A program made the position numbers and the translations under genes. The notes under the pieces are model-generated. The model ran no database searches. It worked only from the letters and a program-made list of their open reading frames with translations, and was not told the DNA's origin. A stretch of 64,000 nt of DNA. It comes from Spirochaetales bacterium. Its GTDB lineage: Bacteria > Spirochaetota > Spirochaetia > SZUA-6 > RPPD01. Below are positions 13,222 through 51,722 of this stretch, piece after piece. The stretch is from assembly GCA_016930675.1 (NCBI GenBank), contig JAFGGG010000035.1, positions 1-64,000 on the forward strand, in the 5' to 3' direction. The first letter of the stretch is position 1, and each line of letters starts with the position of its first letter.

Positions 13222-13890
13222 TTGAAAAAGATTATTGGTTTGCTGCTAATTTTACTGTTATCCACGGGCGCGTTTGCCCAGGATATCAGCATCAGCGCGG
13301 GAGCGGGGATCAATTTTGTTTATTGGGTGACCGCACAATCGGATGACAGCGGAGGTCCTGAGGTAAATTTTGAAATGGGGTGGAGCGCGCTCACCGGGGG
13401 AGTATTTGTTGACCTTACCTACGTGATGGTGAATTTGTCCTATGCTTTCACCTTGGGAGGTCCGGGAGCAACCATTTCAGTGGACGGTACCAAAGATGAC
13501 GCGGCTTCCGATGCCCAGACAACTCTGATGGAAGATATGTCAGCAAGTTACCTGATTATCACCGTGCTCGCCAAGTATCCTTTTGATATGGGGGGAGTGG
13601 TAATCTTTCCCATGCTGGGCGCCGAATATCAGCTTAATCTATCGTTGTACGATGACGATACCGACTTGAAAGATGGTTATAGTGATGAGCAGAACGCTTC
13701 ATTGAACGACCTTTATATCCTGGCCGGTGTGGGCGCGGACTTTGACATTACGGAGAGTTTATACGCGCGCGTTATGGCTCTTTTCTCATATAGTCTTACC
13801 CCGGAAAATCCCGGAAATTATGATGACGACGATATCGTCAAGTGGGGCTGGAACATCAGAGCAGGAGTGTGTATAGGTTATAGATTCTAG
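13222..13890 (+). CDS. Outer-membrane beta-barrel-like protein
   Basis: TTG start, signal peptide KKIIGLLLILLLSTGAFAQ, C-terminal aromatic (IGYRF). Confidence 0.6.
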   Translation: MKKIIGLLLILLLSTGAFAQDISISAGAGINFVYWVTAQSDDSGGPEVNFEMGWSALTGGVFVDLTYVMVNLSYAFTLGGPGATISVDGTKDDAASDAQTTLMEDMSASYLIITVLAKYPFDMGGVVIFPMLGAEYQLNLSLYDDDTDLKDGYSDEQNASLNDLYILAGVGADFDITESLYARVMALFSYSLTPENPGNYDDDDIVKWGWNIRAGVCIGYRF

Positions 13891-41803: not shown

Positions 41804-43473
41804 TTAAACGATATTCGCTTTAATATAATTCTTAATATCTCTGTGTCCTCCGAGTACTTCGCGAGCACGGGTAATTTCAAAAGCCCCTTTAAGATATTCT
41901 TTTCGATCAAGATAAAGTGTGCCGATTTTCCAATAGGCTTCGACAAACCACATATCAATTGCTATTTTTGAATTATTTACTTTTTTAAATTCATTTTGAA
42001 CAGCGATAATATCCTGCTTCAGCTTTTTGTCAGCTATTTCACTGAGAAGATCACTATGCGGTTTAATTTACACATAATACTCGGTTGCGGTCTGTGCATC
42101 CAAGAGTTCGATGATGTCTGAATAAACTGCGAAACTTTTTTTCTGTTATAACGGTAAAGGGCTCCGGCATAGTAATAAAGAATGAAGGGATTCGAGGGTT
42201 CGTCTTGGGCGGCTTTTTTCATAAGCTTTGCCGCCTGTTCGTACCTCTTGGCATTGTAGAGGGAGATAGCTTCTTGGATGGTATGATGGTGCTTGTCCGA
42301 AAGCAGGGTAGGCTGCTCTAGTTCCTTTCCTAAATGAATGTTCGGCGTGATTATATCACCGCGTTCAATCACTTCATTGGGAATTACATGTATGTATTGA
42401 AGAATTTTATCAGCAAAAACATAGGATTCATAGTTGGTAACCTCTTCAAAAACATCAGCGTCAGTAAGCAGTGATTCTCCGAACCTAGCCATAAGTTTGT
42501 TACCGTACGTGATAAACAGCACATTGTAAGGATTAAGCAGTTCCTGCATCTTAAGCACTATGTCGTACAGCTCCTGTGAATGCTCGGGCAGAAAAAAATC
42601 TTCCGGTGCCATAACAAGCCAGGCCTTTTTGACCAGCACATTATATACATACTGCTGAATAAACCTGCAATAGGTGTGCATAGGGATTAATGTAATAAAC
42701 CGGTTCCACTCATTATCCTGTTCGGGAAATTCAAAGGAATCGATGAGTTGGTTTCCCACCCGAATAAATTCCCGAATGTTTTTTTCCGCGCTTTGTTTGT
42801 CCAAGGTTACATCACATAAATAATAAACCAGGCTCATGTCGAGATTTTTGAAAACATAAGAGAAGTAATCCAAATTATCGTTTTTAAAGCTTGATACAAG
42901 TAGTTTTCCAAAATCAGTAAGCGGCAATTTATGCGGGATCAAGACATCCCTGATTAAGAGAGCTTCCACATGGTAGGCATCCATTTCATAGAGATAGTTT
43001 TCAAGCAGGTTGTTGTAAGTGGAGGTAAAAGCCTTGTAATCAATAAAATAGTTGTACGCATGCTGCATTTCGTGGATAAGCAGGGAAAAAACAAGAGATT
43101 TCTGTCTGGGATAAAGGGCAAGTAAATTTTTTTCTACTATAATAATGGGTTTTTGTTCGGGATTATCCGGTGAATAATTAAACTGTGCTCCATAGTGTAC
43201 ATTGCTGACAGCCTGGTCGCTCATCAACAGCAAGAGTTCATAACTCTCTCTTTTTGTTCTGATAAGAGCAACACGTTGACAAAGCATCTCATTGGCAGGA
43301 TGACTATTTTCAACCAGATCACAGAGTTCATAGAAAATTTGAAGCAGTCTTTCTGAAAAGTGATAGGTAATGCTCCGGTTTGAATCCGCTTTATCGGCGG
43401 ATATATACATAACAGAAACCAGAAAAAGCAGACAGAGTACGATGCGCATCACATACCGCTGCATAAAATCCAC
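41804..43473 (-). pseudogene. Secreted HExxH-motif protein with C-terminal TPR, disrupted near the C-terminus
   Basis: 'LLIHEMQHAYNYFID' HExxH; TPR 'AISLYNAKRYEQAAKLMKKAAQDEPSNPFILYYYAGALYRYN'; coding resumes in another frame as KSFAVYSDIIELLDAQTATEYYV*IKPHSDLLSEIADKKLKQ…MWFVEAYWKIGTLYLDRKEYLKGAFEITRAREVLGGHRDIKNYIKANIV*. Confidence 0.75.
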
Positions 43474-43654
43474 CTCCGAAATTACCGCTGGCTTGGCCGG
43501 CAGTATATTAATCTCCGGTTCATTACTTTAGTATATACAAACACTTATTTCAACGTAGAATTCATCTGTAAATATCAAATACGCAATGCATTTTTTTATG
43601 CTGCGATAAAAGCTGCTTGTATACCTAAGCGGACTTTCATAATATATATACTAG

Positions 43655-44905
43655 GTGGCAAAAATAAAATATTTTTTCACTTTTTTCTTTTTTCTGGTGG
43701 CTTTTTGCGGTTACGGAGAAAAATCCGGAACCGAACCGCCTGTTATCCGGAGCGGTGAGCTTAATCTTAGAGGTTTTAACTTCACTGAACAAAACCTGAT
43801 CGTACTGGAAGGGGAGTGGGAGTTTTACTGGGAACAGTTGATCGATCCCAAAGCCTTTTTAAGCGGCGAAAAACACAGTTTAGGTTTATATTGCGAAATA
43901 CCGAGTTTCTGGACGGAGAAAGAAATAGGGGGAAAACGCTTTCCGGCCTTTGGTTACGCCACCTACCACCTCAAAGTGGAAATTGATGAAACCGTACCGT
44001 TGCTTGGGATTTCAATAAAAAATGTGTACTCCGCTTACGCATTATATCTTAATGATACTCTAATTATTGAAAACGGCACGGTTGGTAAAAATCCTGAGTC
44101 TACGGTAGCGGAATCTCTTCCCAGAACAGCCTTTTTTAAGCCGGATTCGGATGTCCTCCATATCACAGTTCACGTAGCTAATTTTTCGAACAAGTATGCG
44201 GGAATTTCTGAAATAAAGCTGGGACAGTCCGATAAAATCGCCCGGGCGGTAAATCTGAATATCACACAGGATGCTGTGCTCTTCGGGAGTATTTCTGTTA
44301 TCGGACTCTATCATCTGCTTTTGTTTTTATTACGCAGGCGGGATAAAAATCTGCTTTTTTTTGGACTTTTTTGCCTCGTGGTTGCCATACGGACTCTCCT
44401 GATGGGCGAACGGCTGTTAAGAAGTGCGTTTTTCTTTGTGGACACAAATAGCATGTTCATTTTGGAATATCTTACCGTTCCTTTGAGCGCTGTGCTCTTT
44501 TCAAGTTTTTTTTATTATCACTATCGTATGCGCTGGTATTTTTGGATACAGGCCGTGCTTATTATCTTAAGTGTACTCAATGTCTGCGTCACCATAATTA
44601 CTCCGCTTGCCGTCTCGATGATGTTGGCGAGATTCTATTATATAGCCATTATCCTCATGTGCGCGTTTGTACTCACAGGAATCGTCCGGGCGATTATCCA
44701 GAAACGGCAGGGAGCTCTCATTTTTCTTATTGGATTTATTATTATCTTCTCCACAGTTGTCAATGACGTATTAATATTCAATCGGGTTTTTATCGGGTCC
44801 TACCTGCTTCCTTTTGGGCTGTTTAGCTTCATCTTTTCCCAGGCTACGCTTATTTCGATCTATTTTGCCGCTGCATTTAAAGAAACGGAGAGACTGACAA
44901 GGTAG
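43655..44905 (+). CDS. 7TMR-DISM-type receptor (extracellular domain plus seven TM), ends at an in-frame TAG
   Basis: Extracellular 'LEGEWEFYWEQLIDPKAFLSG' then 7 TM; frame continues directly into HD-GYP. Confidence 0.8.
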   Translation: MAKIKYFFTFFFFLVAFCGYGEKSGTEPPVIRSGELNLRGFNFTEQNLIVLEGEWEFYWEQLIDPKAFLSGEKHSLGLYCEIPSFWTEKEIGGKRFPAFGYATYHLKVEIDETVPLLGISIKNVYSAYALYLNDTLIIENGTVGKNPESTVAESLPRTAFFKPDSDVLHITVHVANFSNKYAGISEIKLGQSDKIARAVNLNITQDAVLFGSISVIGLYHLLLFLLRRRDKNLLFFGLFCLVVAIRTLLMGERLLRSAFFFVDTNSMFILEYLTVPLSAVLFSSFFYYHYRMRWYFWIQAVLIILSVLNVCVTIITPLAVSMMLARFYYIAIILMCAFVLTGIVRAIIQKRQGALIFLIGFIIIFSTVVNDVLIFNRVFIGSYLLPFGLFSFIFSQATLISIYFAAAFKETERLTR

Positions 44906-45502
44906 CTGGCCGTAGAGATTCGCGGAACTATTGAGGTTATTCTAAAACTCCTGGCAACCAAAGATCCTTATACCGCGAGTCATCAGCAGCGGGTTACCGA
45001 ACTGGCGGTACATATTGCCAGGGAATTTAACTTAAACGAACAACAGATCGAGGCTCTTACACTCGCGGGCCAGATACATGATATCGGTAAAATATCCATT
45101 CCCACGGAGATACTCTGTAAACCGGGGAAGTTAAGCGATCTGGAGTTTAATTTAATCAAAACCCATCCTGAAACAGGCTATAATATTTTAAAGGAGATTG
45201 AATTTCCCTGGCCCATTGCGCGCATCGTATATCAGCACCATGAGCATATTGACGGGACAGGTTATCCTCAGAGCTTAAAAGGGCAGGACATAGATTTCTT
45301 AGCCAAAATACTTACAGTCGCGGATGTCGTAGAGGCGATCGCTTCGGACCGTCCTTATAGAGCGGCCCTGGGAATAGATGAGGGATTAAAGTATATCACG
45401 CAAAAAAGAGCTCATTTTTTCGATGCCAAAGTGGTCGATGTCTGTATTAGAATTTTCAAGAAAAATATATTCCATTTCCAAACAAAAGCGTTGGGTGCTT
45501 AA
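44906..45502 (+). CDS. HD-GYP domain, in the same frame as the preceding 7TM-DISM ORF; absent from the supplied ORF track
   Basis: Manual translation: LAVEIRGTIEVILKLLATKDPYTASHQQRVTELAVHIAREF…GQIHDIGKISIPTEILCKPG…YQHHEHIDGTGYPQSLKG…LTVADVVEAIASDRPYR…. Confidence 0.88.
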   Translation: MAVEIRGTIEVILKLLATKDPYTASHQQRVTELAVHIAREFNLNEQQIEALTLAGQIHDIGKISIPTEILCKPGKLSDLEFNLIKTHPETGYNILKEIEFPWPIARIVYQHHEHIDGTGYPQSLKGQDIDFLAKILTVADVVEAIASDRPYRAALGIDEGLKYITQKRAHFFDAKVVDVCIRIFKKNIFHFQTKALGA

Positions 45503-46235: not shown

Positions 46236-49200
46236 ATGAGTAATGAGAGTCATGCCAATTCACAACCGGAACAGTCTTCGCGTACAAGTAAAGCTGATTT
46301 AAAGGTGTTTGTAGAAAGGTTTTGTGAAACAACCGCGACCACCCATAAAAAAGATTTGCTAGCTGATTTTTTAACCCGTAATCCCGCCATGAAATCAACT
46401 AAGATTATCGATGCGGTTTCAGGTTTAAGCGATCGCAAGCGCTGTATAGAGTACATTGCAGCTTGTAAGGGAAAATTATCCATAATTGAAAATCTAACCC
46501 TCTCCCGCAGGCTTGCCAGTGCCAACAGAGAGATTGATAAACGGGCTAAGGCAATTTTCAACAGAATGACAGCCAAAGACCGTAAAGGCAGGAAATTTGA
46601 TGAAATTGTAATGGGCAATATTTCACCATTAATTAAGCATAATGAAAGTCAGGTATTGGAAAATGTATTACAAAGAATTAATAAACTAAAAGGCGGCTCC
46701 CCCATTACCAATATTTATTCTTCGTTTATTTCCGACCTGATTCAGGCACTTAATATTGTACAGCGGATTAAAAATAACGGGATCACGGAAATTTCGATAG
46801 AAGAGGAATTCACGCAATCCCGCTCCAAGCTAATGAAACCCGGAATGCGCACGATCCTGCAGAATGTCCTGTTTATGGATCCGCGGTTCGCTTTGTTTAA
46901 ACATAAGATTCAGGAGCTGCTTCATTCCTTTCGCAGCGAGGAACTGGAAAAAGAAGCGGAAAGCGGACGTATCTTAAATCAAGACCAAGCCTTAAAAGAT
47001 CTCTCGGACGTAAAAGATTTGGAAACTTTTTTAGACAAAGCGTCCGCCATTATTGAAAGCGGATCCGGCTATATAAATCATGTGGCCAAACTCTTTGATT
47101 TCCGTTTACATAATCCGCTCCTAAGCATCTATAAAATTCTAAAATTCCCCATAGACAGAGAGTTATTCTGGAAATGGATGCAAAAGGCTCCGGTCCCCAC
47201 CAAGCTGTTACCCGAGATCAAAGCGGAAGTAATCAGCTTAAAAAACGAGTTGGAAAAAGATTCCCAAACCAAAAAACCTCCGACCTCTTATGAAGATCTC
47301 TTAAAACTCATATATGACTATAAGGGTTGTTTTACGGATAAATATAAGCTTATTACCGAAGCCTCTAAAACTCATCCCGAAAAGCAGGCTTTGAATTTCT
47401 GTCTGGATCAGATAAAAAATGTGTACTATAAAATTGAAAATAAAATTCTCACTTTGGTTATAAATCAGTTACAGTTCTGCTTTTCCTATTCGGAAATAGA
47501 GAAGATTCTGCTTGAAGACAAAAAAAAGATATCCCAGCGTATTAAAGGTTACAAACTCAAGCTAAAGAAAAATATCGACAGTCTCATGCAGGGCGGCGAA
47601 CAGGAGAAATACAAGGTGCTTCCTTCTGTCCTGAAATATGCGGTTGAAGAAAAGGTAATCACCGAAGAGGCCTTTTTGCAAATAGACCGACAGGTTAATC
47701 CGGAGCACGAACTGGGATTCATCGTCAGGTTAGCCAGTTCGCTTCTGGGTTTTTACTTTTTACTCAACTGTAAACTTATTATCGATTTATGGCGCCGGTA
47801 CTTCGCATCGCTTAAAGTAAGTGACGGCGTGTTTTTAAGGCATAAGCTCAGCTCTCTTACCAAAGAAGAGATTTACGAGTTATGTACTCACTATGCCAAA
47901 GAAAAGCCTGTGGTCATCGAGAATTTAAAGAAGTACCTGGATTGGGGAAAAGCCGAAAAACAGGTGCGTCTGCACATGTTGGAGCGGTTGGGTAAACCTG
48001 AGAGTTTTGCTCCCGAAATTACTTCAGGCAAATATCGGCTTATAGGAGACAAATACAGCTCGACCATGACAGTTAAAATTTTAGACGCTGAGAAAAAAGT
48101 ACGGTTTCATAATAAATCTCCGGGAGTTAATACGTTTTTGGATTTTTTAAATATTATAAAGAAAAACAAGATCCATAATCTTATTAATGTTTCCGACGAA
48201 CAACTTAAAGTGCTGTTTCAGAATATCCATCTGCACGCGATAGATGACCTTTCCCGTTATATCGAAGAAAGACTCAAACTGCTTACATCTGAAAACTCAC
48301 TAGTTAGTCTTTCTGCCAAGGAAATCGAACTCAATTACGCGAAACAGGATGATCCTGCCAAGTATATCGAAGACCTCTTAAAAAGCGGGGAAGCGGAGCG
48401 GGTTTTACGAAACACTCTGTCGGGCAGGCTCGATCAGGAGCTTAAGACCACTCCGGTACAGGAGACGGATATACTAGAACGGATTAAGGCTGAAATACAA
48501 AATCAAAATACCGCTCTTGAGCATATCGAGACTATGATCCGGTTTATCCGCGCCTTGGAAACAAAACAGGGTGGCGTGAAAAAGATAACGGACATATCCA
48601 TAGATGAGATTAATAAATATCTTAAGCTGCATAGAGTCGAAAAAAACGCCGCTTATCTGGAAACAATTTTGGATACATTGATGGAACTCGAAGCCGGTAA
48701 AGATACCGGCGGGGATCTGATAAAAACAAAAGAGTATGTAAGGCAAATTCCTAAGCCGGAGGTTTTTACGGGAGAGGATTCGGTTTATGAGGGCAAATAC
48801 GAGTCTCTGGATCAGGCAAAGGCAGGGATCAGAGATACTATCCTTGTTAATTCTATTGAGGATAATCTAAGCTTTTTAGATGAATTATTAAAAATCGGGA
48901 ATAATGAGCTGGCGGCCAGAACCGCATACGTAAAAGACCACAGTGCCTATAAAAGGGGATCGGCTCAATTTTTCGTTTATGCGAGAGAGCTGGATGAGCA
49001 GCAGGCACTTACAAAAAAAATAAAAAGTTTCTTGGAGTTTGTATCGAATGAGTTTGAAAAACTGCAGGAGGTTAAAAAGCTCAATGATGCCGCTGCTCTG
49101 CGCTTCAAGCAAATCGCGGAGAAAATGCGGGGCAAGCAACCTGACGAGCAGTCCCGTCTGTTGGCAGAAGACTTATATCAACTTACCGACCAGGAACAGA

Positions 49201-51722
49201 AACTGGGAGTTGCCGCGAATTTTTTAGTTAACTCAACGAATGAAGATGTTCTCGAAAAAACCAAGGAGATCATAAATAGCGGCTCGGTTAACAGATATAA
49301 AATATTAATCTCCCTCTATAATATTCTTGATCAGCAGCAGGACCATGATGCCAAAATAAAGATTTTAGACGAGTTCTGCAGTTATCTGGAAGAGAACCGT
49401 TATGAGCTTTATGTGCAATTAAAAGACCTGCTCGACACCCAGCGAAAAAATCTGCTTAATCAGTATACAAAAAAACGGGCCAGAATATCGGATTTATGGA
49501 GAGTACTGGAAACACAGCAAAGCAGAGAGAACAAAATCCAATATTTGAATGAGCTTTTAGCGGATAGCGAATGGAGTATGTTTTATTCGTATGTTGAAAA
49601 TATTAAGCAGGGGCTTTTAGCAGAGAATGTTGATGATATGCTGACGCGTAATAAGCATTTGGCCCTTGAGGACCAGTACGATCTGCTGCAGAAGATTAAG
49701 ATGTTTCGTGCTGAAGAATACGATACGCCGGAAATTAATGAAAGACTCTCACGTAAACTGCTGGAGCTTAGTGCGCGACAAGGTGTGCTTAAAGATAAAA
49801 AAACAAAAATTATTTCCTCTCAGGGCTTTTCGTTCATTATGCGTATTCCGGCTAATGAAGAAAAGATAATTAAAACCATAAACTCAAGCCTGTTTAACGA
49901 GGAACGGGCTGCGGTGGAGAAGGAGTTTAAGGCGCAGGGTATAGCACCGCACGAAATTAAACAATATATTACAAAAAACTTACGCTCTGAAACGGATGTT
50001 TCAACTTTTGTTTCCCGGAAGCAGAAACAAACAGGTCAAAAACCGGCCCCGGTTGCGGCAGTTACTCGTGCGGACGCACCGGGCACTCATGCTGAAAGGG
50101 CGGCTGCCCGTGATGCTGCACAAGAACAGAAGAAACAGGAAACAACACGACATGCAGCGGCGCCTCCGGTCAAGAAAGAGCAAGCGGTTACGCCTCCGGT
50201 TGCGGAAAAACAGGCGGCAACGTCTCCTGTTAAGGAAAGGCAGACCCAAACCCTGCAACCGGAAATAAAAGCCAAAGAGGTGCGGACAAAAAACAAGGAT
50301 CAGACCATACAACCTGAAATCACAGACAAAGCAGCGGCACCTGACATAAAAGATCTTGCCCAAGCTCAAGAGTTCTTTGGACCGGCACACTCAGGCGAAG
50401 AGCAAGATCTTGTCTCAAAGATACAAAAGCTGGTGCATGATAATAAAATACAGGAAGCGGTTTCAACAATACAGAACGAGGTGGTGTGGGAAAAAGGTAA
50501 AAGCGGAGAGCTTGATAAAATGTCCAGGCTGCTTTATTCGGTGCATGAATCACCGGTCATCCGCAAACATGAAGAGGTTAATGATTTTTTAGAAAAGCAA
50601 TTACAGACATTGAGTGCGGTAATTATTAACCACGCGCAAAAAAAAGCAGGACAGGCTCCTTCCCGGCAGGCCGTACCTCAGGCGCAAAACGGGGAAGATC
50701 CTGACCGGGAACATCAAGCTGTCAAAACAAAGGAGACAGAAGCGGTAGCAAGAGTGGAAGAAAAGGCGAAACAGGACTTAAGAACGCTGGTTATGTCTTT
50801 AGAAGGATTGAGGGATTTCACGGATTTACATACTTTTGCCTCACAAAGGGATTTTGAAGAGGAAGAAGAAAAAAGACTGGCCAGGATCATGAACCAGCTT
50901 ATGGACAAGGGTAATTTTATTTATTTGGAAAAAGCGCAGCTGCTTCTGGGAGGGGGAAGGCTTAAATCCCTTATTGAAACGGCTTTTGATCAACACAGTA
51001 CGGGTAAGCCGGTCACCATAGATCCGAACCTGCTAAAAAAGGCATGGGACTTTATAAGGGAAAGAGGCAACATTCAAAATCAGCTGCGTTTGATCGGAGT
51101 CAGCAGCCAGGAAGAACGCAGCGATCTGTTTAAAGAACTGGAAAAATTGATGCATCCACATGGAGTACCTGTTCATAAACTGGCTAAGCAGAAGATGTTC
51201 GCAAAAGGGGAAAGTGAATCACAAGAAACGGAAGCGCCTGAACGAAAGCAGACAGAAGCGAAAGCGCTCGAACCTGAGCGTACATCTCACGTCAGAAGTG
51301 TTACGCGGGAAAAACGACGAGGTCTCTTTACCGCTAAAGTTAAGCCCAAAAAAAAGCCCAAAGCAAAACAGCCTGTCAAGAAAATAGATTATTCTCAGAC
51401 CGTAAAAAACTATATTCACCGGTCCTATGCGCCTGTGCTCATGGACTACATGAAGCGCATGTATAGAAAAAAGAAAGATTTTTTTATTCCCATCAGCGGG
51501 AGAAGACAATATTATGATATTGAAATATTGAGACGCTCGATTGAGGGAATATTACGGAAAGACGCGCGCGGCAAGCATCATGCGGATCTTTTGCATTCGC
51601 TAAAACATGATGAAAAACTTTTTCCGAGGATTGTCTCTGAACTCTTTATCGAACAAAAAACAAAAAACGGGAAGAGCTATTTCTTTCCCAAGTTCCTAAA
51701 AGGCGAGATTGAATTGTCGTAA
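46236..51722 (+). CDS. Giant (1828 aa) predominantly helical/coiled-coil protein of unknown function
   Basis: Single uninterrupted frame; charged helical sequence, low-complexity A/E/K/Q/P-rich stretch around residues 1265-1370, basic patch near C-terminus (KVKPKKKPKAKQPVKK). Confidence 0.85.
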   Translation: MSNESHANSQPEQSSRTSKADLKVFVERFCETTATTHKKDLLADFLTRNPAMKSTKIIDAVSGLSDRKRCIEYIAACKGKLSIIENLTLSRRLASANREIDKRAKAIFNRMTAKDRKGRKFDEIVMGNISPLIKHNESQVLENVLQRINKLKGGSPITNIYSSFISDLIQALNIVQRIKNNGITEISIEEEFTQSRSKLMKPGMRTILQNVLFMDPRFALFKHKIQELLHSFRSEELEKEAESGRILNQDQALKDLSDVKDLETFLDKASAIIESGSGYINHVAKLFDFRLHNPLLSIYKILKFPIDRELFWKWMQKAPVPTKLLPEIKAEVISLKNELEKDSQTKKPPTSYEDLLKLIYDYKGCFTDKYKLITEASKTHPEKQALNFCLDQIKNVYYKIENKILTLVINQLQFCFSYSEIEKILLEDKKKISQRIKGYKLKLKKNIDSLMQGGEQEKYKVLPSVLKYAVEEKVITEEAFLQIDRQVNPEHELGFIVRLASSLLGFYFLLNCKLIIDLWRRYFASLKVSDGVFLRHKLSSLTKEEIYELCTHYAKEKPVVIENLKKYLDWGKAEKQVRLHMLERLGKPESFAPEITSGKYRLIGDKYSSTMTVKILDAEKKVRFHNKSPGVNTFLDFLNIIKKNKIHNLINVSDEQLKVLFQNIHLHAIDDLSRYIEERLKLLTSENSLVSLSAKEIELNYAKQDDPAKYIEDLLKSGEAERVLRNTLSGRLDQELKTTPVQETDILERIKAEIQNQNTALEHIETMIRFIRALETKQGGVKKITDISIDEINKYLKLHRVEKNAAYLETILDTLMELEAGKDTGGDLIKTKEYVRQIPKPEVFTGEDSVYEGKYESLDQAKAGIRDTILVNSIEDNLSFLDELLKIGNNELAARTAYVKDHSAYKRGSAQFFVYARELDEQQALTKKIKSFLEFVSNEFEKLQEVKKLNDAAALRFKQIAEKMRGKQPDEQSRLLAEDLYQLTDQEQKLGVAANFLVNSTNEDVLEKTKEIINSGSVNRYKILISLYNILDQQQDHDAKIKILDEFCSYLEENRYELYVQLKDLLDTQRKNLLNQYTKKRARISDLWRVLETQQSRENKIQYLNELLADSEWSMFYSYVENIKQGLLAENVDDMLTRNKHLALEDQYDLLQKIKMFRAEEYDTPEINERLSRKLLELSARQGVLKDKKTKIISSQGFSFIMRIPANEEKIIKTINSSLFNEERAAVEKEFKAQGIAPHEIKQYITKNLRSETDVSTFVSRKQKQTGQKPAPVAAVTRADAPGTHAERAAARDAAQEQKKQETTRHAAAPPVKKEQAVTPPVAEKQAATSPVKERQTQTLQPEIKAKEVRTKNKDQTIQPEITDKAAAPDIKDLAQAQEFFGPAHSGEEQDLVSKIQKLVHDNKIQEAVSTIQNEVVWEKGKSGELDKMSRLLYSVHESPVIRKHEEVNDFLEKQLQTLSAVIINHAQKKAGQAPSRQAVPQAQNGEDPDREHQAVKTKETEAVARVEEKAKQDLRTLVMSLEGLRDFTDLHTFASQRDFEEEEEKRLARIMNQLMDKGNFIYLEKAQLLLGGGRLKSLIETAFDQHSTGKPVTIDPNLLKKAWDFIRERGNIQNQLRLIGVSSQEERSDLFKELEKLMHPHGVPVHKLAKQKMFAKGESESQETEAPERKQTEAKALEPERTSHVRSVTREKRRGLFTAKVKPKKKPKAKQPVKKIDYSQTVKNYIHRSYAPVLMDYMKRMYRKKKDFFIPISGRRQYYDIEILRRSIEGILRKDARGKHHADLLHSLKHDEKLFPRIVSELFIEQKTKNGKSYFFPKFLKGEIELS

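Follow-up and report, generated by a model that had tools for sequence, protein, structure and literature searches.

The window, which is the whole stretch of 64,000 nucleotides that was analysed, carries a 7TM-DISM receptor and an HD-GYP phosphodiesterase in one forward-strand reading frame that is divided by a single TAG codon. Our analysis suggests that this is probably a nonsense-interrupted gene for one membrane receptor-phosphodiesterase, and that the stop would be a genuine mutation or, with lower probability, an error of the consensus. The receptor ORF (43655–44905, forward strand) closes with the TAG at 44903–44905, and 3' of this codon the same frame continues for 198 sense codons up to a TAA at 45500–45502. 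The 615 codons of the joined frame contain no further stop and no frameshift, and none of 20,000 base-shuffled copies showed 198 open codons. The TAG-joined 7TM-DISM and HD-GYP frame had already been pointed out in the initial annotation of this DNA, and its coordinates and its 198 downstream codons are confirmed here, with a Pfam match for each half.

Two domains in one interrupted frame

The receptor half (43655–44902, forward strand) consists of a signal sequence, an extracellular beta-rich domain and a seven-helix membrane domain, as assigned by Pfam, AlphaFold2 and homology. Residues 207–398 match 7TMR-DISM_7TM (PF07695) with an E-value of 4.4e-19, and the score of 69.7 bits against a cut-off of 29 identifies the seven-helix membrane domain. 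Identity of this half to 7TM-DISM proteins is 31–40%. The AlphaFold2 model places the beta-rich domain at residues 35–191 and the membrane helices at residues 192–436. The extracellular domain lies N-terminal to the seven helices and aligns with that of the fused homologues described below; the Pfam search gave no separate DISMED match in it. Under the standard code the polypeptide stops at 44905, so the intracellular signalling module lies beyond the TAG and the product as terminated lacks the full layout of a 7TMR-DISM protein. The gene starts with a GTG that has an in-frame TAG immediately 5' of it (window 43640–43660). No evident Shine-Dalgarno sequence is present before this GTG, and the 25 upstream bases of the fused homologues are likewise without an obvious one.

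The phosphodiesterase half (44906–45502, forward strand) comprises the 198 codons and the TAA, has no usable start, and is identified by Pfam, by identity to a paralogue, by invariant sites and by a PDB match. HD_5 (PF13487) matches residues 11–176 of this part with an E-value of 1.5e-40, and the score of 139 bits compares with 123–152 bits in intact relatives. The HD and HHExxDGxGYP motifs and the other metal-ligand motifs are all present (HDIGK, IKTHPETG, HHEHIDGTGYP and VADVVEA), and all of the 56 sites that are invariant across nine HD-GYP relatives are retained. The modelled domain matches the solved HD-GYP structures 9rbz and 4mcw, with 35% identity to 4mcw over the match. Hydrolysis of c-di-GMP is predicted for this domain from its sequence. 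Its codon score is at the 71st percentile among ORFs of at least 200 codons, and the score is positive in the HD-GYP frame only of the three forward frames.

The closest relative of this half is a REC–HD-GYP protein of the same genome (G000:C27, L080:8475–9704), to which it is 65% identical over 192 residues without a gap. Differences from this paralogue at codon positions 1, 2 and 3 number 52, 28 and 111 respectively, a spread that is typical of long-term purifying selection and that does not date the stop. The interrupted domain has changed somewhat more than the paralogue in seven of eight outgroup comparisons (for example 24 versus 13 and 26 versus 10), but not consistently, as the reverse is seen with L013 (12 versus 19). 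Because the invariant residues are all kept, either the break would be recent or the domain is still in use.

The stop marks the exact boundary between the two domains. Only 1.3% of the single-step routes to a stop in the frame fall within 5 codons of this boundary and 3.1% within 10 codons. We regard the position as a mild coincidence, recognised post hoc, which somewhat favours a tolerated or selected stop over a random one. AlphaFold2 was run on the read-through frame with the TAG entered as Q for folding only, and gave a mean pLDDT of 79. One unbroken helix (residues 385–436) spans residue 417, the position of the stop, with pLDDT values of about 69–75 near the junction. Judging from this model, no extra upstream module would be needed between the membrane helix and the catalytic domain.

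Fused homologues and the codon at the stop position

Uninterrupted single-ORF 7TM-DISM–HD-GYP genes are present in six genomes from other families of the class (G147, G084, G220, G129, G067 and G050). A class-wide search of 398 genomes gave five of them (L094–L098), to which L017 is added. The residues in the stop column of these six fusions are E, Q, E, E, E and Q, and the next residue is L, as it is here. A stop at this column is found in none of 41 distinct homologues in local alignments, where single residues are less certain than in the six-protein alignment. Since all six class fusions carry Glu or Gln and the modelled helix crosses the position, TAG appears to have taken the place of a sense codon in a fused gene, and it is likely that this sense codon formerly stood in this same gene. 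Homologues that are uninterrupted at the same codon are what is expected for a pseudogene. They also lend support to the earlier statement that one substitution separates the frame from a full receptor-phosphodiesterase.

A comparison of orthologues had been proposed with the initial annotation, with the prospect that the two parts might always be separate genes. The single-ORF fusions speak against this prospect; however, a true orthologue was not found, and the two other genomes of the same family contain no such fusion. A full-length match is absent from the 26 genomes of the order, in which relatives of the HD-GYP part and of the 7TM part occur as distinct proteins, combined with different partners. 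The wider phylum contains four more 7TM-DISM–HD-GYP fusions, each with an HATPase after the HD-GYP domain. These four (L099, L100, L101 and L102) belong to other classes of the phylum, and their C-terminal HATPase_c_2 gives an unusual receptor-phosphodiesterase-ATPase layout.

Full-length identity to the fused 7TMR-DISM–HD-GYP receptors is 29–33%. Receptors of this kind, such as those of G147 (L094:1465–3378) and G050 (L017:1411–3438), share with the gene described here the domain order, the extracellular and seven-helix part and the catalytic motifs. However, they are uninterrupted, their linker is longer and their HD-GYP domain contains inserts, whereas the HD-GYP domain here is of the type found in the REC–HD-GYP protein of the same genome. 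That paralogue in turn has a receiver domain in the place where the present gene has a membrane receptor.

We propose that the ancestor was a single gene whose product had a 7TM-DISM sensor and a c-di-GMP phosphodiesterase of the HD-GYP type connected through one helix, and the fused protein would presumably sense an external ligand and hydrolyse c-di-GMP. A nonsense substitution would then have hit the linker codon of this working fused gene. Translation would end at the TAG and give a 7TM protein of 416 residues that lacks an output domain, and the HD-GYP part would be unmade, or made in trace amounts through ordinary stop-codon leakage. Because neither half is otherwise damaged, the substitution may be recent, or a strain variant, or a consensus error of the metagenome assembly. 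The last of these, a sequencing or consensus error in a gene that is truly uninterrupted, has in our estimate a small though real chance. One base would account for everything, and the genome (G000; 3.23 Mb) is an incomplete metagenome assembly in 46 contigs with a completeness of 78.4%. However, a substitution is required here, whereas many errors are homopolymer indels, and the remainder of the 1.85 kb is undamaged.

Reading of TAG and routes to the catalytic domain

TAG is an ordinary stop in this genome, as far as the assembly shows. The RF1 gene is present, and TAG closes 46 of the 225 long coding ORFs in a 541 kb sample of the genome. No tRNA with a CUA anticodon is found among 34 tRNAs (Rfam tRNA model and ARAGORN) of this 78% complete genome. 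PylS was not found in it either, and the control Methanosarcina set gave matches. Genome-wide recoding of TAG was rejected on these grounds. A second TAG-joined case was not found in the 541 kb, and no stimulating RNA structure is present within 100 nt 3' of the stop (z -0.22).

These results bear on leaky or programmed readthrough, in which a selected TAG would yield mostly an output-less 7TM protein and, as a minority product, the full receptor-phosphodiesterase at low dose. Such a reading would suit the intactness of both halves, the position of the stop at the domain boundary and a frame in which the HD-GYP part, lacking a start of its own, joins gaplessly inside a helix. It would also accord with the report that in-frame stops under purifying selection, with dN/dS below 1, are widespread in bacteria (PMC7918605). 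In Shigella flexneri, nonsense mutations interrupt the c-di-GMP genes dgcE, dgcQ and dgcN, and the nonsense alleles of dgcQ and dgcN have been reported to give a product of full-length size as well as c-di-GMP, by a mechanism that is unclear there (PMC11327459). However, with RF1 present, with no CUA tRNA, PylS, second TAG case or RNA structure found, and with the TAG conserved in none of the relatives found, we consider readthrough unlikely. A regulatory amber, which would make two products from one gene and set c-di-GMP removal at the receptor through its leakiness, is in our view more doubtful still. Among the three options initially put forward (recent nonsense mutation, sequencing error and stop-codon readthrough), readthrough or suppression thus gains no specific support, and the nonsense mutation is favoured.

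Bacterial precedents for such interrupted genes are already published. The Shigella flexneri genes likewise have a premature stop between the sensor part and an intact catalytic domain; however, they are diguanylate cyclases with an ATG near the stop (PMC11327459), whereas no ATG, GTG or TTG is nearby here. The cases collected in PMC7918605, for example a Paenibacillus TAG/CAG sulfotransferase, likewise have TAG where homologues have a sense codon, but they were retained only when common to at least two genomes, whereas the present case comes from one genome.

The two halves could also be two genes, an output-less 7TM protein followed by an HD-GYP protein for which ribosomes would reinitiate on a non-standard codon (CTG at 44906, ATT at 44918 or 44930). 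Termination immediately 5' of the CTG permits coupling in principle, and the bases just 5' of the stop include AAGG. However, the earliest ATG, GTG or TTG in the HD-GYP frame is a GTG at 45431, which is located beyond both HDIGK and HHEHIDGTGYP. This bears out the earlier remark that no start codon suited to HD-GYP is obvious near 44906, and an independent start at a standard codon was rejected for this reason. Furthermore, in 25 of the 27 codon-scored in-frame neighbour pairs in the 541 kb a start codon lies no more than 8 codons from the stop, and the full-length homologues found are fused, never split. We therefore consider two separate genes very improbable. In one of the two exceptional pairs (L123) a protein could not be recognised, and the frame resembles an antisense one. 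The other (L129, G000:C41:1–20000, forward strand) has a TGA at 13342 that joins two similar tandem secreted proteins of 234 and 240 codons. The second copy has a signal peptide, and its earliest ATG, GTG or TTG is at codon 15 past the TGA.

The absence of a start before 45431, past the catalytic motifs, is also the reason why ORF callers skip the HD-GYP part. The nonsense-interrupted gene proposed here therefore matters mainly for annotation, as a catalytic domain that follows a stop without a start is dropped even though relatives have the intact receptor-enzyme architecture. Should the stop prove conserved and leaky, the gene would offer a clean test of stop codons setting output dose in bacterial second-messenger genes.

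Origin of the fusion and its surroundings

For the 7TM part, a 7TM-histidine kinase-receiver-cyclase protein of the nearest genome shows 40% identity, and the gene has neither the inserts nor the longer linker that are seen in the class-wide fusions. Because the nearest HD-GYP domain is that of the same-genome paralogue and a receptor histidine kinase is the nearest relative on the 7TM side, the fusion appears to be separate from the class-wide ones, a point that counts against the proposed reading of an interrupted gene. It would thus be lineage-specific and would have combined a receptor with an HD-GYP domain of local origin.

Around the gene, scans for promoters and terminators scored no higher than shuffled sequences. 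The upstream neighbour (window 42034–43473, reverse strand) encodes a 479-residue protein with only a weak, sub-threshold TPR match, and the remaining 25 genomes of the order contain no relative of it. The downstream neighbour (window 46236–51722) encodes an 1828-residue protein without a Pfam or NCBIfam match. No relative of the latter was found in G002, and beside its relative in G001, a genome of the same family, neither the receptor nor the HD-GYP part of this locus is present. The neighbours give no shared synteny, and therefore no true orthologous locus was found. The G001 relative of the 1828-residue protein is of similar length and 35% identical.
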